Both the position numbers and the translations under genes were made by a program. Source: Candidatus Fermentibacterota bacterium (GTDB lineage Bacteria; Fermentibacterota; Fermentibacteria; Fermentibacterales; JCC-6). From it: a DNA stretch of 34,412 nt. The DNA lies in NCBI GenBank assembly GCA_014728175.1, contig WJMA01000063.1, positions 1-34,412 of the forward strand, written 5' to 3'. The notes under the pieces were generated by a model. The model did not search any database. It saw only the letters and a program-made list of their open reading frames with translations, and was not told the DNA's origin. Every line of letters starts with the position of its first letter. The stretch's first letter is position 1. Positions 12,454 through 33,526 of the stretch are shown piece by piece.

Positions 12454-13815
12454 TTAGACGACGCCCTGGGCGATTATCGCCTCTGCTACCTTCCGGAAGC
12501 CCGCAGCATTAGCGCCCAGCACGTAGTTGCCTGGCTGGCCGTACTGCTCGGCCGCGTCGGCCGCCATGGCGTGGATGTTTACCATGATCTCGTGGAGGCG
12601 GGAGTCCACCTCTTTGCGGGTCCAGCTGCTGAACGCGGCGTTCTGGGCCATCTCCAGCCCGGAAGTCGCCACGCCACCGGCGTTAGCGGCCTTCCCCGGA
12701 CCGTAGAGGATCTTTTCCTGCAGGAAGACTTCCACTCCGGCCGGCACGGTGGGCATGTTCGCACCCTCGCTGACCACGTAGACGCCGTTGTTTACGAGGT
12801 TCTGGGCGTCCTTCTCGTTTATCTCGTTCTGGGTGGCGCTGGGGAACGCGCAGTCGGCCTTGACGTCCCACTTGGGATCGTAGTCGGTGGGCTTGTCAAA
12901 GGCGTTCCACTCGGTGTACTGGGCACTGGAGTACTTCTCCACGTACTCCTTTATTCTGCCCCTCTGTATGTTCTTGAGGTCCATTACGAAGGCCAGCTTG
13001 TCGCGGTCTATGCCTTCCTCGTCGTATATGAATCCGCTGGAGTCGGAAAGGGTTACCACCTTCCCTCCCAGATCCAGCAGCTTCTCCGTGGTAAACTGGG
13101 CTACGTTGCCGGAGCCCGAGACCAGACAGGTCTTGCCCTCCAGGGTTTCATTGCGGGTCTTCAGCATCTCCTGGGCGAAGTAAACGGAGCCATAACCTGT
13201 TGCCTCCGGTCTGACGAGGCTTCCGCCGTAGGAGAGGCCCTTTCCGGTGAGAACGCCGGCCCACTCGTTGACCAGCTTTTTGTACATACCGAACAGGTAG
13301 CCGATCTCGCGTCCACCCACACCTATATCTCCGGCGGGAATGTCGGTGTTGGGGCCGATATGCCTGAACAGCTCGGACATGAAGCTCTGACAGAACCTCA
13401 TTACCTCGTGGTCAGACTTACCCTTGGGATCGAAATCGGAGCCGCCCTTGCCGCCTCCAATTGGTAGGCCGGTCAGGGCGTTCTTGAACACCTGCTCGAA
13501 ACCCAGGAACTTGAGGATGCCCAGGTTGACGGAGGGATGGAATCTGAGGCCGCCCTTGTAAGGGCCGATGGCATTGTTGAACTCCACGCGGAAGCCGCGG
13601 TTGACCTGGATCTCCCCGTCGTCCGTGGTCCAGGGGACCCTGAACATCAAGACTCTGTCCGGTTCCACGACTCTCTCCACGATCTTGTACCTGCGATACT
13701 CGGGATGCTTATCCAGAACCGGTTCCAGGGACTCCAGGACCTCCCTGACCGCCTGATGGAACTCCGGCTGGTCGGGATCCTTGTTGACAACTTCCTGATA
13801 GATTTCCTCCAGCAT
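12454..13815 (-). CDS. gdhA: NADP-type glutamate dehydrogenase, hexameric (class I)
   Basis: Interconverts 2-oxoglutarate plus ammonium plus NADPH with glutamate; 453 aa with the start used here. Landmarks are YKGGLRFHPS (86-95) and GGGKGGSDFDPKGKS (120-134) with the catalytic lysine at 123, PAGDIGVGGREIG (160-172) with the catalytic aspartate at 163, and the Rossmann loop SGSGNVA (233-239). LSDSSG near 256-261 follows the second strand, as in NADP-dependent members. The frame is open to 13923, but family homology begins at MLEEIYQEV (13815), which is preceded by a strong GAGAGGAGG. The extra 36 codons are therefore probably leader. It diverges from nfnAB, which also handles NADPH. Confidence 0.95.
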   Translation of the reverse strand: MLEEIYQEVVNKDPDQPEFHQAVREVLESLEPVLDKHPEYRRYKIVERVVEPDRVLMFRVPWTTDDGEIQVNRGFRVEFNNAIGPYKGGLRFHPSVNLGILKFLGFEQVFKNALTGLPIGGGKGGSDFDPKGKSDHEVMRFCQSFMSELFRHIGPNTDIPAGDIGVGGREIGYLFGMYKKLVNEWAGVLTGKGLSYGGSLVRPEATGYGSVYFAQEMLKTRNETLEGKTCLVSGSGNVAQFTTEKLLDLGGKVVTLSDSSGFIYDEEGIDRDKLAFVMDLKNIQRGRIKEYVEKYSSAQYTEWNAFDKPTDYDPKWDVKADCAFPSATQNEINEKDAQNLVNNGVYVVSEGANMPTVPAGVEVFLQEKILYGPGKAANAGGVATSGLEMAQNAAFSSWTRKEVDSRLHEIMVNIHAMAADAAEQYGQPGNYVLGANAAGFRKVAEAIIAQGVV

Positions 13816-13877
13816 GGGTCCAAGGCCTCCTCTCAGTGGATTGCCTTCCTTGCGGGTATATCCTACACCGAGACAGT

Positions 13878-13907
13878 AGCCTATTCCTTCCCAAGGTCTT
13901 TCGTCAA
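13878..13907 (-). promoter_or_regulatory. Possible gdhA promoter
   Basis: On the minus strand TTGACG (13907-13902) and TAGGCT (13883-13878) are 18 bp apart. The -35 box matches consensus at five of six positions; the -10 box is poor. A start near 13871 would give a leader of about 56 nt before the ATG at 13815, which also fits the choice of the shorter gdhA start. Confidence 0.4.
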
Positions 13908-13940
13908 GCTCGGGCAATGTCATTCATTTGCGGGGCAATC

Positions 13941-13969
13941 TTGACCGAGTAACCGCGGCTCCCTATGGT
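13941..13969 (+). promoter_or_regulatory. Sigma70-type promoter for nfnAB
   Basis: TTGACC (13941-13946) and TATGGT (13964-13969) are separated by 17 bp. The predicted start near 13976 leaves a leader of about 55 nt before the nfnA ATG at 14031. The -35 box lies 34 bp from the -35 of the divergent gdhA promoter, so one bound regulator could affect both. Confidence 0.55.
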
Positions 13970-14030
13970 GCGAATCCAAAGCTCGATGAGAGCAGTGGAT
14001 CCGAATTCAATTCTCGATGGAGGTCAGCCT

Positions 14031-14885
14031 ATGCACCGGATCCTGTCGAAGGAGCGCCTGGGTCCCGAAATCAACCGATACGTCATAGAGGCACCCCAGA
14101 TATCCCGCCGACGAAAACCGGGCCAGTTCGTTATAATCCGGTTGTGCCCCGAAGGAGAGAGAATACCCCTGACCATAGCGGACGCAGACCCCGAAGAGGG
14201 AACCCTGACCCTGGTCGTCCAGGCGGTGGGCAAGACCACCTGGCAGCTGGCGGACATGGAGGAGGGCGACGAGATAATCGACGTGACCGGCCCCCTGGGC
14301 AGGCCCACTCACATCGAGCGTTACGGGACGGTACTCTGCGTGGGAGGAGGAATAGGGGTGGCACCACTCTACCCCATAACCTCCGCGCTGAAAGATGCGG
14401 GTAACGAGATCGTGTGCATCATTGGCGCCAGATCGGCGGATCTGCTAATCATGGAAAAAGAGATGGAGTCTGTGAGCGACCACATGCTGGTGACCACGGA
14501 CGACGGAAGTTACGGGATGCACGGGATGGTCACCGACGGGATAAAGAGAATCGTTGTCGAGGAGGGCAGGAAGGCGGACTTCGCCGTGGCCATCGGTCCC
14601 CCCGTGATGATGAAGTTCACCTGCCTTCTTACCGGGGAGCTGGAGATACCGACCATGGTCAGCCTGAATCCTATAATGATCGACGGAACCGGCATGTGTG
14701 GAGGTTGTAGGGTCAGCGTGGGAGGAAAAACGAAATTCGCCTGCGTGGACGGCCCGGAGTTCGACGGTCATCAGGTGGATTTCGACGAGCTGATGAAGCG
14801 ACTGTCGGCCTACCGTACACACGAGAAGGAGGCCATGGATAGGTACAGCGAGTGTAGAGCCGAGACCGGGGGGGGAGGTCGGTAG
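14031..14885 (+). CDS. nfnA: NfnA: NADH-dependent reduced ferredoxin:NADP+ oxidoreductase, small subunit
   Basis: Small subunit of the flavin-based electron-bifurcating NfnAB complex (also annotated as sulfide dehydrogenase beta or GltD-associated FNR-like subunit); 284 aa. An FNR-type FAD domain (KPGQFVIIRL near 29-38, RIPLTIADAD near 44-53) is followed by an NAD-binding domain (VGGGIGVAPLYPI near 104-116 and AIGPPVMMK near 187-195). The C-terminal [2Fe-2S] segment has C223, C226 and C238; D218 is in the place where Nfn structures use an aspartate ligand. The ATG at 14031 follows GATGGAGG by 7 nt, and homology begins there. The upstream in-frame ATG at 13965 falls in the promoter -10 box. 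nfnB starts 1 nt after its stop. Confidence 0.9.
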   Translation: MHRILSKERLGPEINRYVIEAPQISRRRKPGQFVIIRLCPEGERIPLTIADADPEEGTLTLVVQAVGKTTWQLADMEEGDEIIDVTGPLGRPTHIERYGTVLCVGGGIGVAPLYPITSALKDAGNEIVCIIGARSADLLIMEKEMESVSDHMLVTTDDGSYGMHGMVTDGIKRIVVEEGRKADFAVAIGPPVMMKFTCLLTGELEIPTMVSLNPIMIDGTGMCGGCRVSVGGKTKFACVDGPEFDGHQVDFDELMKRLSAYRTHEKEAMDRYSECRAETGGGGR

Positions 14886-14886
14886 G

Positions 14887-16359
14887 ATGGATTCGAAGGA
14901 ACGGCTGGCAATACCCCCCCATCCCATGCCCGAGCAGGATCCGGCGGAGAGGGTAGACAACGTGCGTGAGGTTCCCCTGGGATACACTGCGGAGACGGCT
15001 ATAGCCGAGGCAACGAGATGCCTGCAGTGCAAGACCCCGTTCTGCGTGGACGGCTGCCCGGTTAACATAGACATCCCCGGGTTCGTACAGGCGGTGGAGG
15101 ACGGCGATTTCAAAAAGGGAATCAGAATACTCAAGAAGGACAACCTGCTTCCCGCCATATGCGGAAGGGTGTGCCCACAGGAAACCCAGTGTCAGCTGGA
15201 ATGTACCGTGGGCAAGGCCCGGAAGGATCAAACCAAATCGGTGATGATAGGCAAGCTGGAGCGATTCCTGGCCGATTGGGAAAGGGAGCAGGGAGAGTTC
15301 GAGGTTCCCCGAATGCCTCCTTCGAGCGGCAAGAAGGTAGCGGTTATCGGAGCCGGGCCGGCCGGGCTCACCCTGGCCGGAGACTTGGTGAGAATGGGTC
15401 ACGACGTAACCGTTTTCGAGGCCTTCCACAAGGCGGGCGGAGTCCTGGTCTACGGGATACCGGAGTTCAGGCTCCCCAAGAGCATAGTGCAGACCGAAGT
15501 GGACTACCTGGAGAAGCTCGGGGTGGAGTTCCGGTACAACCATGTGGTGGGTAAGACTTTGACGATGGAGAAGCTGGTCGAGGATTACGACGCGGTCTTC
15601 GTTGGTACCGGCGCCGGCCTTCCCAAGTTCATGCGGATCCCCGGTCAGAATCTACTGGGAGTCTTCTCGGCAAACGAGTACCTGACCAGGGCCAATCTAA
15701 TGAAGGCCTATGAGTTCCCCAGATCGGACACTCCCATCTTCAGAGCGCGGAAGGTAATGACTGTTGGCGGCGGCAACGTGGCTATGGATTGCGCCAGGAC
15801 GGCCCTGAGATTGGGAGCGCAGGACTCGCTCGTAGTATACCGCCGCTCGGAGAAGGAGATGCCCGCCAGGGTGGAGGAGATAGAGCACGCTCGCGAGGAG
15901 GGCGTCCAGATGCATCTCCTCAACAACCCCGTGCGCATTCTGGGCGACGAGAATGATTGGGTGATGGGGGCAGAGATAGTCCGGATGAAACTGGGTGAGC
16001 CCGACGCCTCGGGAAGAAGACGGCCCATCCCCATAGAGGGCTCGGAGTACGTTCTGGACGTGGACGCTGTAATCGTAGCCATAGGCAACAGCCCCAACCC
16101 ACTTATTCCGGATACCTTCCCCGACCTCGAGGTTACGCGGTGGGGAGGTATCGTAACCAATGAGGTAACCGGTCAGACCTCCGTCCGGGGAATCTTCGCG
16201 GGCGGAGATATAGTGCTGGGAGCGGCAACGGTCATCCTGGCCATGAGCCATGGACGGCGAGCAGCGAAAGCGATCCATATCTACCTGAAGACCGGGAGGT
16301 GGAGTGACCTTGAGGAAGCTGTCGCGGTGGAGATAAACCAATCGCAAACCTCTAGCTAG
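14887..16359 (+). CDS. nfnB: NfnB: glutamate synthase small-subunit-like FAD/FeS oxidoreductase, large subunit of NfnAB
   Basis: Large subunit of NfnAB, with the bifurcating FAD, two [4Fe-4S] clusters and the NADP(H) site; 490 aa. The N-terminal cluster domain has CLQCKTPFCVDGCPVNIDI near 44-62 and CGRVCPQETQCQLEC near 94-108. The FAD-binding motif GAGPAGL is near 155-161, and the NADP-binding GGGNVAMD near 295-302. KLGEPDASGRRRPIP near 368-382 and the C-terminal FAGGDIVLG near 437-445 are typical of the GltD superfamily. On family knowledge the complex couples NADH and reduced ferredoxin oxidation to NADP+ reduction. The adjoining nfnA, without any gltB, argues against a glutamate synthase role. 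Confidence 0.9.
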   Translation: MDSKERLAIPPHPMPEQDPAERVDNVREVPLGYTAETAIAEATRCLQCKTPFCVDGCPVNIDIPGFVQAVEDGDFKKGIRILKKDNLLPAICGRVCPQETQCQLECTVGKARKDQTKSVMIGKLERFLADWEREQGEFEVPRMPPSSGKKVAVIGAGPAGLTLAGDLVRMGHDVTVFEAFHKAGGVLVYGIPEFRLPKSIVQTEVDYLEKLGVEFRYNHVVGKTLTMEKLVEDYDAVFVGTGAGLPKFMRIPGQNLLGVFSANEYLTRANLMKAYEFPRSDTPIFRARKVMTVGGGNVAMDCARTALRLGAQDSLVVYRRSEKEMPARVEEIEHAREEGVQMHLLNNPVRILGDENDWVMGAEIVRMKLGEPDASGRRRPIPIEGSEYVLDVDAVIVAIGNSPNPLIPDTFPDLEVTRWGGIVTNEVTGQTSVRGIFAGGDIVLGAATVILAMSHGRRAAKAIHIYLKTGRWSDLEEAVAVEINQSQTSS

Positions 16360-16360
16360 A

Positions 16361-16389
16361 TTGACTTGGAGGCCGGCCGGGCGTAACGT
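16361..16389 (+). promoter_or_regulatory. Possible promoter for the receiver/RAM regulator gene
   Basis: TTGACT (16361-16366) is 17 bp from TAACGT (16384-16389). The -35 box is good and the -10 box weak. It starts 2 nt after the nfnB stop and would give a leader of about 50 nt. Confidence 0.35.
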
Positions 16390-16445
16390 TGCTGCCGTCG
16401 GTCGGACGGTTGATACCGGTGGAAAAGGTCAGAAGGAGGAGCTCA

Positions 16446-17438
16446 GTGAAAGGTCGAGTTCTTATAATAGACGACGAGCCGGAAATTAGACGCAATCTGA
16501 CAGTGGGCCTTACCCAGGAAGGGTACACGGCCGTCGCCTGCCCGGACGGGATCTCCGCAATCCATGAGCTGAACAAGGCCTCGAAGGAGGGTACCGGGTA
16601 CGACTACCTGGTTACGGATATCTTCATGCCGGACATAGACGGCCTGAAGATTCTCAAGGTGATCAAGAACCAGTACCCCGACCTTCCGGTACTGGTCATA
16701 ACGGGTTTCGGTGACGAGAGACTGATGTACACGGCCCTTTCCGAGCACAATACGGCGTACCTGGATAAGCCCTTCGAGATATCCGATCTCGTGAAGGCTC
16801 TGGGGGAGCTGTCCCCGGGGACCACGGCGGTGGAGAAGGAGACGGCGAGAAAGCCCGAGACCGGCTTGCGGGAGTCGGTAAGCGCCTACCTGACGGTCAA
16901 GATAACCGATGACGACAGGAGCATGGACATCTTCAACGAGTTGTACGACATGAGGAACATTCAATCCTGCGAGGCGGTTAGGGGAGAGGATATCGACATC
17001 ATCCTTCTCGCCCAGGGCCAGTCCAGGGACGAGATAGAGGACGTGTTCGACCGGGTTCGTTCCATGGAGGGGGTGGAGGTGTCATCGGTCTCCCCCGTGC
17101 AGAGGCCCAAATTGGACCGGGACGTGGACGAGTTCATAGAAACCTACAAGAAGGCTGTGAAGACGTCCGTGCAGCAGAAGGCCAGAAAGCAACCTGGGAC
17201 GATCAGCTACTTCATAGTAGACGTGGATAAGGAAAAGCTTCAGAAGATATTTACCACCGTCTTTTTCATAGACGAGGTTCTGTTCTGCGACGTCATCGAG
17301 GACGGTACGAAGCTGGTGGGCATGGTTACCGGCCAGGAAGCGACCGGCCGGATGCCCAGGATAATGGAGAAGCTGAACGGAATCGACGGCGTCCTCAGAG
17401 TGCGGGAGGCCAAGGTTATAAGGCTGATGGAAGACTGA
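16446..17438 (+). CDS. Response regulator with receiver and tandem RAM (Lrp/AsnC effector-like) domains
   Basis: The protein has 330 residues. The receiver domain (1-120) is intact: acidic pair D9/D10, phosphoacceptor D58 in LVTDIFMPDIDG, Thr near 86 and K108 in YLDKPFE. Two ligand-binding-type ferredoxin-like folds follow, at about 145-225 (SVSAYLTVKI...FNELYDMRNIQSC...VRSMEGVEVSSV) and 250-330 (ISYFIVDVDKEKL...MEKLNGIDGVLRVREAKV). These resemble the RAM domain of Lrp/AsnC regulators. No helix-turn-helix or enzymatic output is visible. The GTG at 16446 is chosen because AAGGAGG lies 6 nt upstream and the receiver begins directly there; an open frame to 16389 is less likely. Its place between two transhydrogenase-like operons suggests a redox or nitrogen signal, which is inference. 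Confidence 0.75.
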   Translation: MKGRVLIIDDEPEIRRNLTVGLTQEGYTAVACPDGISAIHELNKASKEGTGYDYLVTDIFMPDIDGLKILKVIKNQYPDLPVLVITGFGDERLMYTALSEHNTAYLDKPFEISDLVKALGELSPGTTAVEKETARKPETGLRESVSAYLTVKITDDDRSMDIFNELYDMRNIQSCEAVRGEDIDIILLAQGQSRDEIEDVFDRVRSMEGVEVSSVSPVQRPKLDRDVDEFIETYKKAVKTSVQQKARKQPGTISYFIVDVDKEKLQKIFTTVFFIDEVLFCDVIEDGTKLVGMVTGQEATGRMPRIMEKLNGIDGVLRVREAKVIRLMED

Positions 17439-17502
17439 CCGGCCCAGGCCTTCGATCCCTTAGCGAGATACGGTTTTCGTCGCCGACGGCGGAAGGGAAG
17501 TG

Positions 17503-17991
17503 ATGGCTACCGAAACCACTAACAGGCAGGAAGATTTCACGTATCGTCTCTGGAGGTACGACGGTCAACCCGGAGAGCTTATACCGCTGCTGCAGTCCGC
17601 CCAGGACCATTTCGGTTACATCCCCCGCAGAGCCATTAGCTACATCGCCAGCGTCACCGGCATTCCCGAGTCGGAGGTTTACGGGGTTATCACCTTCTAC
17701 AGCCAGTTCAGGCTGCGGCCCATGGGAAAGTACGTCATAAGAGCCTGCGCCGGGACCGCCTGCCATGTCTCGGGCGCCAGCTCGATACTGGACGCGATAC
17801 AAGACGAGCTGGGCGTGGAGTCAGGCGAGACCACGGAGGACGGGCTGTTCACCCTGACCTCGGTGGCCTGCCTGGGATGCTGCTCGCTGGCCCCGGTGGT
17901 AATGGTCAACGACGAGACCTTCGGCAGGCTTACCCCCGCCAGCGTCAGGAAGGTCGTAAAAGAGATCGCGCGCAGGGGCGACAAGCAGTAG
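17503..17991 (+). CDS. NuoE/HydC/HndA-like [2Fe-2S] subunit of a bifurcating NAD(H) complex
   Basis: Thioredoxin-like [2Fe-2S] subunit, 162 aa, close to NuoE and to HydC of bifurcating hydrogenases. The N-terminal helical part (LIPLLQSAQDHFGYIP, 27-41) and VYGVITFYSQF (59-69) are typical. The cluster cysteines are C82, C87, C123 and C127 in the family spacing C-x4-C and C-x3-C. The ATG at 17503 is preferred over the GTG directly before it; GGAAGGGA lies just upstream. It is the first gene of a three-gene set with the NuoF-like and NuoG/GltD-fusion genes, 41 nt from the next start. It would pass electrons between the FMN subunit and the fusion subunit. Confidence 0.88.
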   Translation: MATETTNRQEDFTYRLWRYDGQPGELIPLLQSAQDHFGYIPRRAISYIASVTGIPESEVYGVITFYSQFRLRPMGKYVIRACAGTACHVSGASSILDAIQDELGVESGETTEDGLFTLTSVACLGCCSLAPVVMVNDETFGRLTPASVRKVVKEIARRGDKQ

Positions 17992-18031
17992 CAGTGCAAG
18001 CGAAACTACATAGACTGGAACGGTTTTGGTC

Positions 18032-19813
18032 ATGAAGAGAATTCTAGTTGGAATGGGCACCTGCGGCCTGTCGGCCGGAGCACAGAAGGTTTACGACAGA
18101 TTGGAAGAGCTTGCCGACGAAGGGACCGCAGAGGTCGAGCTGTCCCGGACGGGTTGCATCGGCATGTGCTACCGCGAGCCTCTGGTTGAGGTCCGGGAGG
18201 GCGAGAGCAGAATAATCTACGGTGACGTGGATGCCGAGCTTGCCGAGCAGATATACCGCACTCACGTACTGGGCGACGAAGAGGTCTCCGACAGCGTCGT
18301 CTACAGGCAGGAGGGCCCCGACGGGGAGATAGGCGGATCCGAGTCCAGCTACCACATTCTCCAGAAGCGGATAGTACTAAGGAACTGCGGAACCATAGAC
18401 CCGGAGTCCATAAAGGAGTACGAGAGCGCCGGTGGCTACCAGGCCCTACGCAAGGCGCTCGAAGACATGACCTCCGAAGAGATAATCGACGAGGTGAAGG
18501 CCTCCGGTCTTCGGGGAAGGGGTGGGGCCGGCTTCCCCACCGGTCTGAAATGGTCCTTTGCCGCCGCTAACGAAGCGGATACCAAATACGTGGTATGCAA
18601 CGCAGACGAGGGTGACCCCGGCGCGTTCATGGATCGGTCGGTACTAGAAGGTGACCCCCACTCCGTGTTGGAAGGCATGATCATCTGCGCCAGAGCAATA
18701 GGCGCCGATCAGGGCTATATATACTGCCGTGCCGAGTACCCGCTGGCCATTCGCAGGCTGAACGTGGCAATCGCCGCCGCCCGGGAAAAAGGATACCTGG
18801 GAGAGGACATCCTGGGATCGGGCATCGACTTCGATATCAGGATAAAGCAGGGGGCGGGAGCCTTCGTGTGTGGAGAGGAAACGGCTCTGTTCGCTTCCAT
18901 AGAGGGGCGCCGGGGCATGCCCCGCCTAAGACCTCCCTTCCCCGCCGAGAAAGGTCTGTGGGGAAAGCCCACCAACAACAACAACGTGGAGACCTACGCC
19001 AACGTACCCTGGATACTAACCCGGGGCGCGGACGAGTACGCCAAAATAGGAACCGAGAAGAGCAAAGGTACCAAGGTATTCGCACTCGCCGGCAAGGTCA
19101 GGAGGGGTGGCTTGGCCGAGGTTCCCATGGGAACGACGATCCGCGAGCTGGTCTTTGACGTGGGCGGGGGCATTAAGCAGGGCCGGGATTTCAAGGCGGT
19201 ACAGATCGGGGGGCCTTCGGGAGGCTGCATCCCCGAGGAGCTGGCGGACATTCCGGTAGACTTCGAGAGCATACCCGAAACCGGAGCCATCATGGGATCT
19301 GGCGGCCTGGTGGTGATGGACGACACCACCTGCATGGTGGAGATCGCCAGGTTCTTTCTCGATTTCACCCAGAAGGAGTCCTGCGGCAAATGCACCTTCT
19401 GTCGGATCGGTACGCTGCGGATGCTGGAGATACTGGAGAGATTGACGAAGGGAGAGGGAGAACCGGAGGACATGGAGAAGCTGAGCCGGCTGGGGGAGCA
19501 GATAAAGCAGAGCAGTCTGTGCGGTCTGGGCCAGACGGCACCCAATCCGGTGTTAACCACAATGAGATACTTCGAGGACGAATACAGGGCTCATATAGAG
19601 GAGGACAGATGCCCGGCCGGATCGTGCCTGGCCCTGGTGGACTTCCACATCGATCCGGAGAAGTGCGTCGGCTGCACGCTGTGTGCCAAGAGCTGCCCGG
19701 TGGAAGCGATAAGCGGTGAGCCCAAGGAACCTCACGAGATAGACAACTCCGTGTGCGTCAGGTGCGGCAAATGTATAAGCAGCTGTAACTTCGACGCCAT
19801 TTACAAGAGCTGA
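18032..19813 (+). CDS. NuoF/HydB/HndC-like NAD(H)- and FMN-binding FeS subunit
   Basis: Soluble NADH-oxidising flavoprotein subunit, 593 aa. A thioredoxin-like [2Fe-2S] region comes first, with visible cysteines C11, C42 and C46 (GTCGLSAGA and TGCIGMC). The NuoF core has GLRGRGGAGFPTGLKW for FMN, NADEGDPGAFMDR, and GAGAFVCGEETAL for NADH. A [4Fe-4S] motif, SCGKCTFCRIG, is followed by a ferredoxin-like tail with CVGCTLCAKSCP and CVRCGKCISSCN. The extra N- and C-terminal clusters place it with HydB/HndC/StnB rather than respiratory NuoF. The ATG at 18032 is chosen over the TTG two codons upstream. No H-cluster hydrogenase subunit is nearby; the third partner is the fusion protein at 19826. Confidence 0.92.
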   Translation: MKRILVGMGTCGLSAGAQKVYDRLEELADEGTAEVELSRTGCIGMCYREPLVEVREGESRIIYGDVDAELAEQIYRTHVLGDEEVSDSVVYRQEGPDGEIGGSESSYHILQKRIVLRNCGTIDPESIKEYESAGGYQALRKALEDMTSEEIIDEVKASGLRGRGGAGFPTGLKWSFAAANEADTKYVVCNADEGDPGAFMDRSVLEGDPHSVLEGMIICARAIGADQGYIYCRAEYPLAIRRLNVAIAAAREKGYLGEDILGSGIDFDIRIKQGAGAFVCGEETALFASIEGRRGMPRLRPPFPAEKGLWGKPTNNNNVETYANVPWILTRGADEYAKIGTEKSKGTKVFALAGKVRRGGLAEVPMGTTIRELVFDVGGGIKQGRDFKAVQIGGPSGGCIPEELADIPVDFESIPETGAIMGSGGLVVMDDTTCMVEIARFFLDFTQKESCGKCTFCRIGTLRMLEILERLTKGEGEPEDMEKLSRLGEQIKQSSLCGLGQTAPNPVLTTMRYFEDEYRAHIEEDRCPAGSCLALVDFHIDPEKCVGCTLCAKSCPVEAISGEPKEPHEIDNSVCVRCGKCISSCNFDAIYKS

Positions 19814-19825
19814 GGAGAACGCCAG

Positions 19826-22800
19826 ATGGTCACACTCACTATCAATGGAAAGACTGTGGAGGCAAGCCCGGAGAAGACCATACTGGAGGTGGTGCAGGAG
19901 AACCGGCTGGACGAGATACCCACGCTCTGTCACTCGTTCGAGCTAACCCCTTACGGCTCGTGCTTCGTATGCGTGGTCGAGCTGGCGGGCCGGCCCAACC
20001 TGGTTCCGGCTTGTGCCACCAGGGTCGCCGAGGGCATGGAGGTAAGAACCAGGAGCGAGAGGGTGATGACCGCCCGGAAGACCGCTTTGGAGCTGCTCTG
20101 CTCAAACCACTACGCGGACTGTGTTTCTCCGTGCATGGAAGGTTGCCCGGCGGGGGTGGATGTACAGGGCTACCTGGCCCTGTCCGCCATGGGCCAGTAC
20201 AGGGAAGCCGTCAACTTGATACGGAAGACCAACCCGCTGCCGGCCATCTGCGGCCGGGTGTGCGTAAGGAAGTGCGAGGTCGAGTGCAGAAGGCAAGACG
20301 TGGACCAGCCGGTGGCCATAAACGCGGTGAAACGCTTTCTTACCGACGTCCCGGGAATATACGATAGCGACCCGCAAAGAGAGCCGGGAAGAGGAATGTC
20401 CGTGGGAATCGTGGGCGGAGGGCCCGCGGGGCTGACCGTGGCCTGGTTCCTGGGCTTGAATGGCTACGATCCTGTGATCTACGAGGCCAACGAGAAGGCC
20501 GGAGGTATGCTGAGGTACGGGATACCGGGGTACAGGCTCCCCGACGAGGTTCTGGACGCGGAGATCGAATACATCCAAAGAGCGGGCGCGGAGATCAGGA
20601 CCGGAATCAGGGTGGGTGAGGACGTTACCCTGGAAGAGCTGAGGGAACGGCACGACGCGGTCTTTCTCGGTCCCGGAGCCTGGGCCGGTAAGTCCATGCG
20701 GGTGGAGGGAGAGTACGAGACCGAAGGTGTGGTAATGGGGGCCGATTTCCTTAACCGTATGGCCGTCTCCCCGGAGAAGCTGCGGGGAACCGTGGTGGTG
20801 GTGGGCGGTGGCAACACCGCGATGGACGTCGCCAGGACCGCCTGGAGGCTGGACGCGGAGAAGGTGATAATCGCCTACCGCAGAACAAAGGCCCAGATGC
20901 CCGCCGACGAGATGGAGATTGAGGACTGCCTGGAAGAGGGCATCGAGGTAATGGAGCTTACCCAGCCGGTAGGGATAGTCAAGGACGACCAGGGAAAGAT
21001 CAAGGCCCTTAAATGCATCAGGATGAAACTGGGTGAGCCCGATGCCTCGGGAAGGAAGCGCCCCGTTCCCATAGAGGGCTCCGACTTCCAGCTCCCCTGC
21101 GACCTGGCGGTTTCCGCCATAGGGCAGAAACCCATCCTGGACGGGCTGGATCTCGACGGCCGGATAGAGGTCAGCCGGTGGAGCACCTACCAGGTGGATA
21201 CGAAGACCATGCAGACCACCATGGAAGGGGTCTTCGCCGGAGGAGATGCCGCCGACGATGGCCCGACCGTGGTCATAGATGCCATAAGAGACGGCCAGAG
21301 AGCAGCATCGGCCATACATGCGCATCTGTCGGACCGGGACCTGCAGCCGGAGCCTTTCGTCGTAAGGAAGGAGTTCTGGACCAAGCCCGGTAAACAGGAG
21401 CTGGGGGAGATAGAGGAGAGGCCCCGCCACGAGGTCCACACCATAGACGTGGAGGACCGCAGAAGCAACTTCCGGGAGGTGGCCACCGGCTTCGAGTACG
21501 AGGACAACGTCCATGAGACCGACCGCTGCCTTGCCTGCGGCTGTCTGAGGTACGACGACTGCAAGCTCAGGCTCTACGCCGAGGAGTACGGCGTGGACAT
21601 GGAGCACTACAAGGGATACGTCAGGAAGCACCGGGTGGATGACCGGCACCCCTACATAGCCTACGATCCCAACAAATGCATACTGTGCTCCAGGTGCATA
21701 AGAACATGTGAGCGAGTGCTTCCCATCTCGGCTCTGGGTCTGGTCAACAGAGGTTTCCGGACCGAGATGCGCCCGGCGATGAACGATCCCTTGGTCGACA
21801 CCAACTGCATAAGCTGCGGCAACTGCGTCGATTCCTGCCCCACCGGAGCCCTTACCTTCAAGTATCCGTTCAGGGGAAGGGCGGCCCTGGAGACCGAGGA
21901 GGTGGAGACCCACTGCGCGTTCTGCTCTCTAGGGTGCAGAATGGTGGTCAGGAAGTTCGCGGATGCCAGGTACTACATCAGGTCCGCCGAAGAGCCCGGC
22001 GAGTACCTCTGCAGGTACGGCCGGTTCGGCAACGAGCTGTTCATAAGACGGAGCAGACTCACCTCCCCCCTCATCAGGGCCGGGTTGACAACCAAACGGA
22101 CCAGCATGGAAGAGGCCTGCGAAAGGGTCTTCGGGCGCATGCGGGAGGTGGCGGAGGCCGAGGGGCCTTCGGCGGTCGGCGTCTTCGTCTCCCCGGAGCT
22201 GAGCAACGAACAGCTGTACCTGGCCTGCAGGATAGCCCGTGAAGGCCTGGGAACCAACAACGTAGGATCGATGGCGATACTCGGAAACGGAAACGAGTCC
22301 GGAGAGCTGGACTCCTCCCTGGGGTTCACCGCGTCCACGACCGACCGCTCAGTCCTATCGAAGGCCGATCTTATTATCTGTAACAACACCAGCCTCGAGG
22401 ACGATCACCTCATACTGGCAGTGGACTTGATAGAGGCCGTGAGAAGCGGCACTCGGTTCGTGGTCTCCAACTCTATACTCGACCCGGCCGACAGGAAGCT
22501 GGCCACCCTTACCATGGACCCGATGCGCGGTCGGGGAGCCCTTCTGTGGAACGGGGTGATCCAACTGCTCCTGGACGAGGGCTTCTTCCCCGATGTGCGG
22601 AGCATGCCGGGGGGCGAGGAGTTCCTGCGGAGCAGGGAGGGATACGCTCCCGTGGACGTCGCCCGGGCCGCGGGAGTTCCGGAGGAATCCCTGCGGGAGG
22701 CCGCGGAGCTGGTAAGGAATGCGTCCAACGTGGTATTCGTCCACAGCCCGGACAGGCCCCAGGACCAGGCTCCGGGAGACCTTCAGACCCTGGCCAACTT

Positions 22801-23509
22801 CCTCGTTCTTCTGAGAAGCGTCGAACGCAACGCCCACCTTCTTCTTCCACGCCTGATAGGAAACAGCGCCGGCCTGGAGGTCTGCGGGACCGATCCGGTG
22901 TTCTGCGCGGGCAGGATGAAAAGCCAGATCGACGGAGGGGCCTCTTCCAGGGAGGAGCTGCGCAAGCTTCTGACCAACGCCGATATCCGGGCTGCGCTGG
23001 TGGTGGGTGAGAACCCGATGGCCCACAACCTCACCGCATCCTACCTGCAGAACGTGGAGTTCATGGCGGCCATGGATTGGACCGACACCGAGACCGTCAA
23101 CTTCGCGGACGTGGCTCTTCCGGGTTGCACCTTCCTGGAGGAGAGGGGAACCAGGTGCAACTTCGAGGGAAAGCTGCTTGAGTACCGTGAAGCGGTACGG
23201 CCTCCCTCCGGCGTACCGGGCTGGAAGGTTCTTCTGCAGCTTGCCCGGACGTTCGGTATAGATGTAGACGCCAACGACTTCGACCAGCTCTCCTCCCTGG
23301 TGGACGATCAGGTAAGGCAACGCATGGACCAGCGATTGCTGCCCTTCTACTGGAACACGGGGCAGGAACGCCGATTGCCCGAAGAGCTGAAGCTGGTTCC
23401 GGTAAGCGCGGAGGCCGAAGCTACCCCCATCCATCCCCCTCTGACGCATGGCGAGGAGTACAAGAGCAAGATACGAGAGGTCGGCACCGAGAGGTTCAGA
23501 GTGAAGTAG
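19826..23509 (+). CDS. NuoG-like FeS protein with an inserted GltD/NfnB-like FAD-NADP module (StnC-like fusion)
   Basis: Multidomain electron-transfer subunit, 1227 aa. Residues 1-80 form a [2Fe-2S] ferredoxin domain (C35, C46, C49, C63). A His-Cys3-like set follows (H95, C99, C103, C107) and merges with the GltD-type cluster region (C142, C146, C150, C154). A GltD/NfnB-like module at about 190-500 has FAD motif GGGPAGL (197-203), NADP motif GGGNTAMD (327-334) and FAGGD (470-474). Further cysteines are at 568-579. Two [4Fe-4S] motifs lie at 618-628 and 661-671, then a MopB-type cluster C697/C700/C704/C729. A molybdopterin-oxidoreductase-like domain fills the rest without the catalytic Cys/Sec of formate dehydrogenase. 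With the two genes before it this resembles the Stn (Sporomusa-type Nfn) transhydrogenase. The stop is followed closely by the kinase gene. Confidence 0.82.
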   Translation: MVTLTINGKTVEASPEKTILEVVQENRLDEIPTLCHSFELTPYGSCFVCVVELAGRPNLVPACATRVAEGMEVRTRSERVMTARKTALELLCSNHYADCVSPCMEGCPAGVDVQGYLALSAMGQYREAVNLIRKTNPLPAICGRVCVRKCEVECRRQDVDQPVAINAVKRFLTDVPGIYDSDPQREPGRGMSVGIVGGGPAGLTVAWFLGLNGYDPVIYEANEKAGGMLRYGIPGYRLPDEVLDAEIEYIQRAGAEIRTGIRVGEDVTLEELRERHDAVFLGPGAWAGKSMRVEGEYETEGVVMGADFLNRMAVSPEKLRGTVVVVGGGNTAMDVARTAWRLDAEKVIIAYRRTKAQMPADEMEIEDCLEEGIEVMELTQPVGIVKDDQGKIKALKCIRMKLGEPDASGRKRPVPIEGSDFQLPCDLAVSAIGQKPILDGLDLDGRIEVSRWSTYQVDTKTMQTTMEGVFAGGDAADDGPTVVIDAIRDGQRAASAIHAHLSDRDLQPEPFVVRKEFWTKPGKQELGEIEERPRHEVHTIDVEDRRSNFREVATGFEYEDNVHETDRCLACGCLRYDDCKLRLYAEEYGVDMEHYKGYVRKHRVDDRHPYIAYDPNKCILCSRCIRTCERVLPISALGLVNRGFRTEMRPAMNDPLVDTNCISCGNCVDSCPTGALTFKYPFRGRAALETEEVETHCAFCSLGCRMVVRKFADARYYIRSAEEPGEYLCRYGRFGNELFIRRSRLTSPLIRAGLTTKRTSMEEACERVFGRMREVAEAEGPSAVGVFVSPELSNEQLYLACRIAREGLGTNNVGSMAILGNGNESGELDSSLGFTASTTDRSVLSKADLIICNNTSLEDDHLILAVDLIEAVRSGTRFVVSNSILDPADRKLATLTMDPMRGRGALLWNGVIQLLLDEGFFPDVRSMPGGEEFLRSREGYAPVDVARAAGVPEESLREAAELVRNASNVVFVHSPDRPQDQAPGDLQTLANFLVLLRSVERNAHLLLPRLIGNSAGLEVCGTDPVFCAGRMKSQIDGGASSREELRKLLTNADIRAALVVGENPMAHNLTASYLQNVEFMAAMDWTDTETVNFADVALPGCTFLEERGTRCNFEGKLLEYREAVRPPSGVPGWKVLLQLARTFGIDVDANDFDQLSSLVDDQVRQRMDQRLLPFYWNTGQERRLPEELKLVPVSAEAEATPIHPPLTHGEEYKSKIREVGTERFRVK

Positions 23510-23529
23510 GAAGGCTGGCTGACGGCACG

Positions 23530-25530
23530 TTGATAGAGCTGGAGAAAGTATACGCCTTCATAGAGATCAACTTCGACTACCTCCTGGCGGTTGACGACGA
23601 AGAGACCGTAGTCCACGCCAGCCGGCCCCTGAAGAGCTCCGTGGGCATGAAGGAGCTGGAGGGGGTGAGCCTGGAGGATGGCCTGACCCCTTCTTCGCTG
23701 CGGTCCTTTCGAACGGCCATGGAGAAGGCTCGAAAGGGAAGCGGGGAGATAGTCGTGCTTTCCCACCGGGACTGGGACGCCAATCCCATTCCGCTGAAGA
23801 CCGGCTACGCCAAGACCACCGAGGGCGGAATCTACCTGTTCTTCGGAACCCGCATAGAGAGCATTAGCAAGTTCAGCGACTCGGAGAAGGACGAGCGGGT
23901 AAAAGAGCTCTCCTGCATCTACTCCGTCGCCGAGTGGATCGAGGTCAGCAGGTCGATCAACGAGTTCTTCACCAAGTTCTCCGAGTACCTGGCACCGGGC
24001 ATGCAGTATCCGGATTCCACATCGGTCTATTCGGAGTACCGAGGGGTGGGATACGGTACCCCTCCGGAAACCGACAGGAAGCTACAAACCACCGTCGTGG
24101 TGAACGGCAAGCCCGCCGGCAGCATAGCCGTCTTCTACGACGACCCGGAGCTGGAGCTGCTTCCCGAGGAGCAGAAGATGCTCAACGAGATCGCCAGGAT
24201 GCTCAGCCTGGCCCTGGAGCGGAAAGAGCTCTCCCAAAGGCTGCTCCTGAAGCAGGAGGAGGAGGCGGAGTACAGAAGGAGGTTCGAGAAGCTCCAGAGG
24301 GAGATCGAGCAGAGAACGAAGGAGCTGGCGGATCAGCAGAAGAAGCTGAAGACCATAAACTCCTACATAGAGCGTTCCTACCGTGACTGGGAGATGTCGA
24401 AGCTTCGGTTCGAGACCATGTTCCAGGCCATACCGGACGACGTGGTTCTCATAGACAGGGACCGCAACGTCATCATGACCAACAAGGAGGACGTGGATCC
24501 CGGAAGGAAGTGCTACAGCACGTTCTTCGACCGGGAGGAGCCCTGTCCCGACTGCAGGCTTGATCTCATTCTCAAGAACAAGACCCCCGTCACCCTCACC
24601 CTGAAGAACGGTGACCGATACCTGCAGGTGCACGCCCTTCCGGTGTTCAACGAGGAACACGAGGTCGACGGCATAATGGAGTTCTACAGGGACATAACCC
24701 TGGAGAAGACCTACGAGCAGCAGATCCAGCAAGCGGACAAGCTGGCCTCGCTGGGAGAGCTGGTCAGCGGCATCGGACACGAGATAAACAATCCCAACCA
24801 GTTCATCAGGGGAAACATCAAGATACTTCACCAGGCACTGGACGACATTCTCCCGATTCTGGACGAGTACTACCAGGATCACCCCGATCTTACCATAGCC
24901 AGGCTGAAGTACGATTTCTTCCGGGAGCACGTGAGTACCCTCCTGGACGACATGCGTCACGGCTCGGAGCGGATCAAGAGTATCGTGGAGGGCTTGAGGA
25001 GGTTCGCCAGGAGGGACGAGGGTCTGCTCATCGACAAGATCGACATAAACACCCTGATCGAATCCAGCGCCAGGCTGGTGGAGAAGGAGGTCCACAAGCA
25101 CGCCGAGATCGAGCTGGACCTGGCCGAGGACGTTCCGGAGTTCACCGGAAACTCCCAGAAGATAGAGCAGGTGCTGGTGAACCTGATCGTCAACGCCAGC
25201 CAGGCCATGCCCGAGGGCCGCAGGGGCCTTATTACCGTCAGGACCAGGGTGGAGGGCGAACAGATCCACATCCAGGTGGAGGACGATGCGAAAGGCATGA
25301 ATGAGAAGGTCCAGAAGCAGATATTCGATCCCTTCTTCACCACCCGGAGGGCCAAGGGGGGCACCGGGCTGGGATTGGCCATCGCCTACAGGATAGTGGA
25401 GGAGCACGGAGGGGCCATATCCGTTTCCAGTACCGTGGGAGAGGGGACGACCTTCACCATCCGCATCCCGATCAACAGGGAGCAGGACGCGGTGCAGTCC
25501 GAGCCCGAAGAGGCCGGTGAGGAGGAATGA
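23530..25530 (+). CDS. Cytosolic sensor histidine kinase with PAS-like, GAF, coiled-coil and PAS domains
   Basis: The protein has 666 residues and no membrane segment. A PAS-like N-terminus (1-110) is followed by a GAF-type domain (about 120-232, YSVAEWIEV...QYPDSTSVYSEYRGVGY...GSIAVFYDDPE). A coiled coil covers 230-290. A second PAS (290-395) holds a cysteine trio, C328, C339 and C342 (GRKCYS...EEPCPDC). The kinase core has H417 in LVSGIGHEINNPNQF, the N box LVNLIVNASQAMPEG, the G1 box DDAKGM and the G2 box GGTGLGLAI. The start is a TTG at 23530 with only a weak GGAAGG upstream; it keeps the first PAS-like fold intact. The gene begins 20 nt after the fusion gene and overlaps the next regulator by ATGA, so the operon probably senses the redox state made by its neighbours (inference). 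Confidence 0.88.
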   Translation: MIELEKVYAFIEINFDYLLAVDDEETVVHASRPLKSSVGMKELEGVSLEDGLTPSSLRSFRTAMEKARKGSGEIVVLSHRDWDANPIPLKTGYAKTTEGGIYLFFGTRIESISKFSDSEKDERVKELSCIYSVAEWIEVSRSINEFFTKFSEYLAPGMQYPDSTSVYSEYRGVGYGTPPETDRKLQTTVVVNGKPAGSIAVFYDDPELELLPEEQKMLNEIARMLSLALERKELSQRLLLKQEEEAEYRRRFEKLQREIEQRTKELADQQKKLKTINSYIERSYRDWEMSKLRFETMFQAIPDDVVLIDRDRNVIMTNKEDVDPGRKCYSTFFDREEPCPDCRLDLILKNKTPVTLTLKNGDRYLQVHALPVFNEEHEVDGIMEFYRDITLEKTYEQQIQQADKLASLGELVSGIGHEINNPNQFIRGNIKILHQALDDILPILDEYYQDHPDLTIARLKYDFFREHVSTLLDDMRHGSERIKSIVEGLRRFARRDEGLLIDKIDINTLIESSARLVEKEVHKHAEIELDLAEDVPEFTGNSQKIEQVLVNLIVNASQAMPEGRRGLITVRTRVEGEQIHIQVEDDAKGMNEKVQKQIFDPFFTTRRAKGGTGLGLAIAYRIVEEHGGAISVSSTVGEGTTFTIRIPINREQDAVQSEPEEAGEEE

Positions 25531-26900
25531 ACAAGGTCCTGATAGTCGACGACGACGTTGCCGTAACCAACTACTTCATGGTCTTTCTCATGCAGACCGG
25601 TACCTTCGAGCCGGAGGTGGTCAACGACTCCCGGAAGGTGCCCGGTCTACTAGGGGAGCGGGAGTACGACGCCATTCTCCTGGACATGGACATGCCCACG
25701 GTAAGCGGGATGGACATTCTAAAGCTGGTCCGGGAGAGAGGTATCGACACCCCGGTGATAGTATTGACCGGAGTCAGCGACGTGGAGCTCGCCGTAAGGG
25801 CCATGAAGCTGGGAGCGTTCGATTACCTGACCAAGCCCGTCGACGACGAAAAGCTCCTGGAAGTTTTAAATAACTCATTGGAACACAGGCAGTTATACGA
25901 TACCATCGAGGAGCTGCCCTCGGAGCTGTCCCGACAGGACCTGGCTCACGAGTCGGTCTTCGAGGAGTTCCCGACCAATGACCCCTCGATGATCAGGATG
26001 CTGCACCAGGCGGAGAAGATAGCGGGAAGCGAGCTGAGCGTGTTCATATGGGGAGAGCGGGGAGTGGGCAAGGAGGATCTGGCCAGGGCCATCCACCGCA
26101 GCAGCCCCCGCAGCAACGCCGCCTTCATTACCGCCGACCCCGCCAGCCAGAACCCGGACAGGTTCGCGGCGCTGCTGTTCGGGGAGGCCAGAGCCTGGGG
26201 AGGTAAGAAGGAGGAGAGCCCGGGATTTCTGGAGGAAGCCGCGGGAGGAACCCTGTTCCTGGACGAGGTAGACTCGCTGACTCTACCCCTGCAGGTTCGT
26301 CTCAGAAGGGTGATTCAGACCTGCGAGTACTACAGGGAGAGGTCTGCCAGAATCCGCCAGACCAACGTGCGGTTCATCACCGCCTCCACCCTGGATCTCA
26401 CCCAGGAGAAATACCGGGACCGTTTCTCCCGAGATCTCCTCTACCATCTGATGGTGAACTCCATTCGGATCCCTCCCCTCAGGGAGAGGCCGGACGACAT
26501 TCCCCTGCTGGCCGAGCACTTCCTTCGAAAGGAGCGGGAGAAGACCGGGAAAGACGTAAAGGGATTTTCCGAGGAGTTCATGGAGCTGCTGAAAGGCTAC
26601 GGCTTTCCGGACAACGTTCAGGAGCTGAAGACGATAGTGGCCGGTTCCGTGGTCAACGAGGAGACCGATACGATAACCGTGGACTCGCTCTCCTCCTACA
26701 TCAGGGCCAGGATGCAGCCGGAGTCTGCCGTTAGCGCCGAGCACTACACGCCCCGTACAATGGATGAGATCCAGCATGAGCATGCGCGGAAGACCCTGGC
26801 CATATGCGATGGTGACGTGGAGAAGGCGGCCCAGATCCTCCAGATCACCCCGGAGGAGGTCCGACGCATGGTTCCCGCGGACGAGGCCGAACCTGGCTAG
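25527..26900 (+). CDS. NtrC-family response regulator lacking the GAFTGA loop
   Basis: Receiver-AAA+-HTH protein of 457 aa, cognate partner of the overlapping kinase gene. The receiver has D9/D10, phosphoacceptor D53 and K103 in LTKP. The AAA+ domain (about 145-375) has a Walker A-like GERGVGKE (176-183), Walker B GGTLFLDEVDS (240-250) and an arginine-finger region (FSRDLLYHLMV near 300-310). Where sigma54 activators carry GAFTGA, this protein has ARAWGGKKEES (221-231). The C-terminus (about 410-450) is a Fis-type helix-turn-helix (ARKTLAICDGDVEKAAQILQ split around 418-437). It probably binds DNA but should not open sigma54 promoters by the usual mechanism. Its TAG overlaps the stop of the convergent gene in CTAG. 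Confidence 0.85.
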   Translation: MNKVLIVDDDVAVTNYFMVFLMQTGTFEPEVVNDSRKVPGLLGEREYDAILLDMDMPTVSGMDILKLVRERGIDTPVIVLTGVSDVELAVRAMKLGAFDYLTKPVDDEKLLEVLNNSLEHRQLYDTIEELPSELSRQDLAHESVFEEFPTNDPSMIRMLHQAEKIAGSELSVFIWGERGVGKEDLARAIHRSSPRSNAAFITADPASQNPDRFAALLFGEARAWGGKKEESPGFLEEAAGGTLFLDEVDSLTLPLQVRLRRVIQTCEYYRERSARIRQTNVRFITASTLDLTQEKYRDRFSRDLLYHLMVNSIRIPPLRERPDDIPLLAEHFLRKEREKTGKDVKGFSEEFMELLKGYGFPDNVQELKTIVAGSVVNEETDTITVDSLSSYIRARMQPESAVSAEHYTPRTMDEIQHEHARKTLAICDGDVEKAAQILQITPEEVRRMVPADEAEPG

Positions 26901-33472: not shown

Positions 33473-33497
33473 CGGCCTTCCTTTCACCTTTGTGGCT

Positions 33498-33526
33498 ACA
33501 GTACGCCGGTCCATCGGTTCTGTCCA
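33498..33526 (-). promoter_or_regulatory. Probable promoter of the Tim44/TerB gene
   Basis: On the minus strand TGGACA (33526-33521) and TACTGT (33503-33498) are 17 bp apart. The predicted start near 33491 leaves a leader of about 19 nt containing GAAAGGAAGG before the ATG at 33472. This supports the shorter start, since the upstream ATG at 33514 would lie inside the promoter. Confidence 0.45.

Follow-up and report, generated by a model that had tools for sequence, protein, structure and literature searches.

What does it mean that two enzyme systems coupling NADH, NADPH and ferredoxin lie side by side in an uncultured bacterium, with signalling genes between and behind them? The question is raised by a 34,412-nucleotide stretch of contig WJMA01000063.1 (hereafter the window) from a Candidatus Fermentibacterota bacterium (assembly GCA_014728175.1), part of a 2.6-Mb draft genome (G000) that is 95.9% complete. 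Its positions 12454–26900 carry gdhA on the reverse strand, followed on the forward strand by nfnA, nfnB, a receiver regulator gene, stnA, stnB, stnC, a histidine kinase gene and an NtrC-like gene (Table 1). The enzymes NfnAB and StnABC (Sporomusa-type Nfn, or Nfn-Bfu) are known, and the conserved signalling context is new. With a probability of roughly 0.6, both enzymes are of the known kinds and StnABC is under a dedicated redox two-component system, which would adjust Stn output possibly on the protein rather than the promoter.

StnC was found at 62 loci of the contig collection. These loci represent the close subfamily of the query, because they were retrieved by short peptides of it; loci L006–L024 and L108–L120 overlap other loci or genomes and were left out of the neighbourhood census. 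Close StnC relatives with named records include Candidatus Fermentibacteria, Aegiribacteria and Sabulitectum. The regulator gene lay within 4 kb upstream of stnABC, on the same strand, in all 45 loci whose sequence reaches 3.7 kb or more upstream of stnC, and this recurrence rules out chance adjacency. The kinase gene lay within 10 kb downstream of stnC in 35 of the 44 loci with room (within 3 kb in 27), and kinase and NtrC-like genes were both downstream in 25 of 34. The nfnB gene was within 7 kb upstream in only 19 of the 39 loci with room, which rules out Nfn as an obligatory partner of the signalling genes. One upstream open reading frame (ORF) from each of four loci without nfn was compared, and no common family was found among them. 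The preliminary description of this DNA had staked its proposal on a neighbourhood conserved in relatives, and such a neighbourhood exists. The most widely conserved unit is narrower than the block first drawn: it is regulator-stnABC, usually with the kinase and NtrC-like genes, and nfnAB is variably placed.

The regulator consists of a receiver and two RAM domains, the ligand-binding domain of Lrp/AsnC proteins (REC-RAM-RAM). Response_reg and AsnC_trans_reg matched all 39 family members at E ≤ 0.01; the RAM score of the window protein is 22.5, under the Pfam cut-off of 25. No helix-turn-helix (HTH) family was among the eight Pfam families matched by any of the 39 members. The AlphaFold model (mean pLDDT, a per-residue confidence score, 84.8) showed a receiver, then two β-α-β-β-α-β domains joined by a helix. 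The alignment, made from 38 of 50 listed ranges plus the window with near-duplicates left out, showed that receiver residue K108 is invariant and D58 and T86 nearly so. One member also gave a weak match (E 0.0016) to a TM1266-like family, described as a putative regulator of an iron-only hydrogenase system. In a fold search with the model, the matches listed align receivers and are silent on relatives of the RAM part. Archaeal REC-NitrOD1 response regulators likewise join a receiver to a RAM-like domain and lack an HTH; NitrOD1 is possibly a variant of Lrp/AsnC (PMC5847659). Those proteins are archaeal, and the available part of that paper mentions no link to redox enzymes, whereas the present regulator has two RAM domains and tight stn linkage. 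A stand-alone tandem RAM protein without a receiver is encoded directly upstream of stnABC in another locus (L092:11927-12499), whose contig also carries a glutamine synthetase gene.

The NtrC-like protein has receiver, AAA+ and lid domains in common with NtrC-family enhancer-binding proteins. It shows LFGEARAWGGKK where GAFTGA is expected, and a GAFTGA-type motif is absent from the window protein and its 21 close relatives (22/22). Five other enhancer-binding proteins of the same genome, used as controls, carry GAFTGA, GSFTGA or GAYTGS. The Walker B Glu is lost in 17 of the 22 close-clade members; the Walker A of the window protein (GERGVGKE) is present. No HTH family matched the window protein at E ≤ 5, and the C-terminal HTH of the close clade appears weak or short compared with that of NtrC-family proteins. 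The window and 23 of the 26 ranges listed were aligned; L060 and L064 were dropped for inner stops and L063 was left out as a near-duplicate. Rhodobacter NtrC is a sigma54-independent DNA-binding regulator. A paper on Caulobacter NtrC reportedly contains the phrase 'lacks the GAFTGA', so proteins of this sort are already known. The label 'NtrC-type' of the preliminary description has to be qualified by the missing sigma54-contact motif, and no DNA-binding domain was recognised in its receiver/RAM protein.

The kinase PAS segment carries three Cys (C, then PCxxC) in all 35 aligned sequences, one of which has AC for PC, and 42 of 43 kinase ORFs of the window type match the pattern. The pattern was not found in the distant Stn-linked kinases of L088–L090. 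Similar Cys-containing PAS domains are common in anaerobes. The segment is a putative sensor of redox or Fe-S state.

Genome searches with the regulator profile (E ≤ 1e-35) and StnC (E ≤ 1e-100) covered 385 genomes. The regulator was detected in 41, one copy each (some cut by contig ends, G029 in two pieces). StnC was also present in 38 of the 41, and the other three (G012, G026, G030) are 67–89% complete. Of the 42 genomes that belong to the same order or are closer still (G000–G041), 36 have the regulator. The nfnB gene adjoins it in 31 of these, is missing there in G001, G005 and G018, and is obscured by contig ends in G035 and G041 (judged by eye), giving 31 of 34 informative genomes. Outside the order, the regulator was found in G081, G144, G226, G343 and G358, all with StnC. 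The N-terminal 400 residues of the kinase matched 32 of 60 genomes, once each; all 32 belong to G000–G041, and none to the 18 outside the order. The NtrC-like protein was found in 27 of the 60 at E ≤ 1e-90, all within the order.

NfnB, at 52–70% identity, was present in 21 of 26 genomes with Stn (19 at full length; G401 and G392 in fragments) and was not found in G387, G397, G402, G409 and G410. The 26 genomes were picked from 62, mostly for lack of a local nfn, and the count concerns NfnB alone. For the close clade, mutual exclusion of Stn and Nfn was therefore rejected. The co-occurrence of both systems on which the preliminary description had built is real, and it is not without precedent: both had already been listed in 2020 for the acetogens Clostridium carboxidivorans and C. 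magnum, in a paper whose consulted part terms their presence 'almost mutually exclusive' (PMC7483475). G001 and G005 (98% and 97% complete; the same genomes as G410 and G409) have no NfnB orthologue and no kinase or NtrC-like match. Their regulators are at 37% and 50% identity, respectively, and their StnC is as conserved as elsewhere. This hints that the kinase, the NtrC-like protein, Nfn and a constrained regulator may go together. It is Stn that accompanies the signalling genes consistently; Nfn adjoins them in some lineages only.

We propose the following scheme. NfnAB, by FAD-based bifurcation, and StnABC, by FMN plus Fe-S based bifurcation, would pass electrons between NAD(H), NADP(H) and ferredoxin, with an NADP-linked GdhA encoded alongside. 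The kinase, with its probably redox-sensing PAS segment, would read redox or Fe-S state and phosphorylate both receivers, that of REC-RAM-RAM and that of the NtrC-derived protein. Phosphorylated REC-RAM-RAM, perhaps also sensing a metabolite via its RAM domains, would adjust Stn output and, where nfnAB is linked, the Stn/Nfn balance; it would act either by protein–protein contact or via a further transcription factor. The phosphorylation partners and the target of control are what we infer here. A bolder version is doubtful: phosphorylated REC-RAM-RAM would bind StnABC itself, with RAM contributing a metabolite signal (an amino acid, for example), the former sigma54 activator would be a second non-transcriptional receiver, and the redox-sensing kinase would arbitrate between the two transhydrogenases post-translationally. 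The 'dedicated control' suggested in the preliminary description fits in that the conserved linkage makes the signalling genes look dedicated to the locus. Such control need not be transcriptional, because the NtrC-like protein is without GAFTGA and REC-RAM-RAM is without a recognisable DNA-binding domain.

Several observations weigh against the scheme. The window NtrC-like protein keeps an intact Walker B 'DE' (LFLDEV), and its model keeps three short C-terminal helices. HTH_8 matched at least 10 of 24 NtrC-like members, and many aligned ranges end before the C-terminus is reached. DNA binding by this protein may therefore persist. One sigma70-like site, of two promoter-like sites, lies just upstream of nfnA (13941–13969), such sites being not above shuffles. 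Stn also exists without the signalling genes: near stn in the StnC loci L093–L103, L106 and L107, neither a RAM protein nor a kinase or NtrC pair reached the census thresholds (weak matches in L093, L094 and L106). In several genomes, 3–8 kb separate the kinase and NtrC-like genes from stnC, or these genes are on other contigs. Stn-linked rows went into the regulator profile, and four of the five genomes matched outside the order (G081, G144, G226 and G343) contributed rows to it, so that only G358 and the absence elsewhere are independent. The joint loss in G001 and G005 concerns two genomes of one genus and is perhaps one event. In G387, G397 and G402 (L032, L051, L069) no NfnB orthologue was found, yet regulator and kinase are both well conserved; the signalling genes are thus not generally tied to Nfn.

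The strongest alternative is ordinary transcriptional control, in which transcription of the operon is set by the kinase/NtrC-like pair together with the receiver protein; the NtrC-like protein would bind DNA and act independently of sigma54, and REC-RAM-RAM would act via a partner. We give it appreciable weight, short of even odds. Besides the HTH_8 matches, a sigma54 gene (DNA-binding domain) is present in the genome of the window, and the distant Stn-linked NtrC homologues L088, L089 and L090 keep GAFTGA, L088 and L089 with a Fis-like C-terminus by eye; the ancestral role of the NtrC-like protein was therefore probably transcriptional. The loss of GAFTGA throughout the close clade, the frequent loss of the Walker B Glu and the lack of HTH families in REC-RAM-RAM speak against this alternative, as does the promoter search. 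The window contains 15 sites resembling the -24/-12 element at two mismatches against 10.2 expected, and 7 of 100 shuffles had as many. This count does not clearly exceed chance and is uninformative on a sigma54 promoter of the operon. Neither the 107-bp gap separating gdhA from nfnA nor the stretch from nfnB to the regulator gene contains such a site. Promoter and terminator scans gave counts not above shuffles.

Linkage without function, with nfnAB, stnABC and the signalling genes inherited together as a stable operon and the regulator acting on targets elsewhere, appears improbable. The StnC tree was built by a quick method from 53 of 72 full-length rows picked for spread, with long-branch warnings. 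It places the close subfamily and L104 on one branch of 37 rows (SH-aLRT support 100), with the regulator-linked L088–L092 outside. L041 and L044 (labelled Krumholzibacteriota/-iia) and L042 nest there with Sabulitectum and Aegiribacteria and have the nfnAB-regulator-stnABC order in common. The block can thus move as a whole, which favours mere joint inheritance; whole-block transfer or misbinned contigs are the likely origins of these three loci. The regulator stays beside stnABC even where StnC identity falls to about 40%, and does so in bins from several phyla, while the positions of nfnAB, kinase and NtrC-like genes vary, which argues against a passive linkage, as does the presence of StnC in nearly all regulator genomes, with the profile drawn from Stn-linked rows. 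The deposited labels of the regulator loci, all metagenome bins, include Fermentibacteria, Krumholzibacteriota, Eisenbacteria, Elusimicrobia, Aminicenantes, Acidobacteria, Spirochaetales and Spartobacteria. Among 20 StnC loci of other families, 5 of the 17 with room encode a RAM protein upstream (in one case lacking a receiver) and 3 of 17 a downstream kinase, which has mostly the kinase core in common with the window kinase. In L028, L029, L030, L063 and L068 (Aegiribacteria/Fermentibacteria), the kinase gene, with an NtrC-like neighbour where the locus reaches, is 3–8 kb from stnC.

By sequence and residues, StnABC is genuine. StnC is a fusion of 2Fe-2S, GltD-like and NuoG/FdhF-like domains (family and PDB matches). 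Its residues were compared with those of S. ovata by counting on a printed alignment. Lys169 corresponds to S. ovata K170, a ligand of cluster C7, and is Lys in 69 of 69 ungapped positions among 72 StnC rows; Arg237 corresponds to R239 and is Arg in 71 of 71. Both Arg of the YRR motif (351–353) are kept in 72/72 rows. The window NfnB has Glu where StnC has the K170-equivalent Lys. Cys114 near C7 is replaced by Val113 in the window StnC (V 26, A 33, I 6, C 4 and gap 3 in the 72 rows). This was not treated as excluding Stn, because the structure paper itself reports that Cys114 is not strictly conserved, with Val or Ile in two homologues (PMC10482914). StnB carries the B2-cluster residues His523, Cys529 and Cys534 (numbering of the 595-aa ORF) and two C-terminal CxxCxxCxxxC motifs, and the His-Cys-Cys pattern was present in 66 of 66 loci with the StnB region caught, of 82 scanned. 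StnA has the [2Fe-2S] cysteines 83, 88, 124 and 128. We take PDB entry 8oh5 to be the S. ovata Stn complex, from its 1172-residue StnC and the matching residue numbers. The B2-cluster His is described as present in virtually all BfuB and absent from non-bifurcating homologues (PMC9304861). The window trio thus has the three subunit kinds, order, cluster ligands, K170/R239 equivalents and B2 His of Sporomusa-type StnABC (PMC7483475, PMC10482914) and Nfn-Bfu (PMC9304861), as far as the consulted parts of these papers describe them; it differs in the Val for Cys114, the REC-RAM-RAM gene before it and the kinase and NtrC-like genes after it. NADPH-driven bifurcation to NAD+ and ferredoxin, the NADP specificity and the direction are predicted from the families. 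That the trio is instead an NADPH-dependent sulfur/iron reductase or a formate dehydrogenase-like diaphorase (Nso, SfrAB or Fdh type) is the least probable alternative: StnC is related to NsoC and SfrAB (PMC7483475, in the part consulted) and to formate dehydrogenase alpha subunits by family and PDB matches, but the Bfu core residues, Lys169 and Arg237 are kept, the Pfam Molybdopterin domain matches StnC at positions 238–347 of 353 only, and the S. ovata enzyme showed no formate oxidation (same source).

NfnAB is likewise genuine by sequence and residues, and coupled NADH- and ferredoxin-dependent NADP+ reduction is predicted. NfnA has the DGTGMCGxCRx10CV [2Fe-2S] motif and NfnB the RCx2Cx4Cx3CPV and GRVCPQExQCx3C motifs, as such motifs are defined in the consulted part of PMC6405883, which also identifies 4ylf as Thermotoga maritima Nfn and 5jca as Pyrococcus furiosus NfnI. 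NfnB Arg195 aligns with NfnI R201, the Arg at the bifurcating FAD. The window enzyme resembles both in its two subunits, cluster motifs and this Arg, and differs in that nfnAB adjoins stn and gdhA and in the second NfnB motif, where x15 instead of x13 precedes Gx2ER. A divergent gdhA stands directly before nfnA in 8 of the 62 loci; elsewhere it is upstream in L031, L037 and L056 and downstream in L069.

The gene order, strands and coordinates of the preliminary description were borne out, and family searches identified the genes, gdhA being of the NADP type and divergent. The two enzyme systems are about 1.1 kb apart, as first stated. From nfnA through the NtrC-like gene, gaps are short or genes overlap, consistent with one operon divergent from gdhA. 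For the regulator, the GTG at 16446 behind AGGAGG is the more likely start, rather than the TTG at 16389. For nfnA, the ATG at 14031, preceded by a purine-rich site, is probably the start, rather than 13965.

Table 1. Features at positions 12454–26900 of the window
Feature	Position	Strand	Supporting matches
gdhA, NADP-specific glutamate dehydrogenase	12454..13923	-	NF006929, 744 bits (cut-off 536); PF00208, PF02812
nfnA	14031..14885 (ORF opens 13965)	+	NF004862, 417 bits (cut-off 220); best PDB 5jca_S, 4ylf_A
nfnB, bifurcating subunit	14887..16359	+	TIGR01316, 648 bits (cut-off 472); best PDB 4ylf_B, 5jca_L
REC-RAM-RAM response regulator	16446..17438 (longest ORF from TTG 16389)	+	PF00072, PF01037
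stnA / BfuC, NuoE-like [2Fe-2S] subunit	17500..17991	+	best PDB 9n5u_C, 8oh5_A
stnB / BfuB, NuoF-like FMN/NAD(H) subunit, C-terminal ferredoxin domain	18032..19813 (ORF from TTG 18026)	+	best PDB 8oh5_B, E 6.1e-257
stnC / Nfn-type BfuA, GltD-like NADPH domain and NuoG/FdhF-like domain fusion, 1227 aa	19826..23509	+	best PDB 9bov_A, 8oh5_C
PAS histidine kinase, three-Cys PAS motif	23530..25530	+	HATPase_c, HisKA, PAS_4
NtrC-like response regulator without GAFTGA	25527..26900	+	Response_reg, Sigma54_activat, AAA_lid_14

Two further genes of the window lie outside this block. Positions 9356–12352 encode a 998-aa protein with a PPDK N-terminal domain, a homologue of which adjoins gdhA in L028, L031, L037, L068, L113 and L115. 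Positions 31568–33514 encode a 648-aa protein with Tim44-like and TerB domains and a double-zinc-ribbon match below cut-off. Elsewhere in the genome, two loci were found around two other Complex1_51K matches. RnfC- and RnfD-like genes were read by eye from translations on G000:C63 near 74321 (L132), and ferredoxin:NAD oxidation by Rnf is therefore likely in the same cell. On G000:C56 near 10669 (L133), a second Bfu-type NuoF occurs with NuoE-like, HoxU-like and aldehyde-ferredoxin-oxidoreductase-like frames, resembling Wor-Bfu by eye. A fermenter with Rnf, a second Bfu and an NADP-linked GdhA would need electron movement among the three carriers, which Nfn and Stn can provide.

The nearest precedent is in Hydrogenedentota, where BfuABC and the group C3 [FeFe]-hydrogenase BfuT with PAS or kinase domains likewise combine a Bfu enzyme and signalling domains in one cluster (PMC11406978, in the part consulted). 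The sensor there is a hydrogenase, whereas here a PAS kinase and two receivers stand beside a transhydrogenase. The literature searched contained no description of a regulator set tied to Stn. Signalling genes flanking Sporomusa-type Stn or Nfn-Bfu are unmentioned in the available parts of PMC7483475, PMC10482914 and PMC9304861; the main text of the last, in its available part, has neither 'response regulator' nor 'histidine kinase', although one of its figure legends refers to regulatory genes drawn near Bfu clusters.

Electron-bifurcating enzymes set the NADH/NADPH/ferredoxin balance in anaerobes, and the control of this balance is little known. A conserved signalling set travels with one such enzyme in several uncultured groups, which suggests that electron balancing is actively controlled. 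A conserved kinase and two receivers that accompany the enzyme in bins from several uncultured phyla would open a way to study that control. Nfn and Stn would appear often together rather than as alternatives, and the NtrC-like protein would offer a case of a transcription activator rebuilt into something else.

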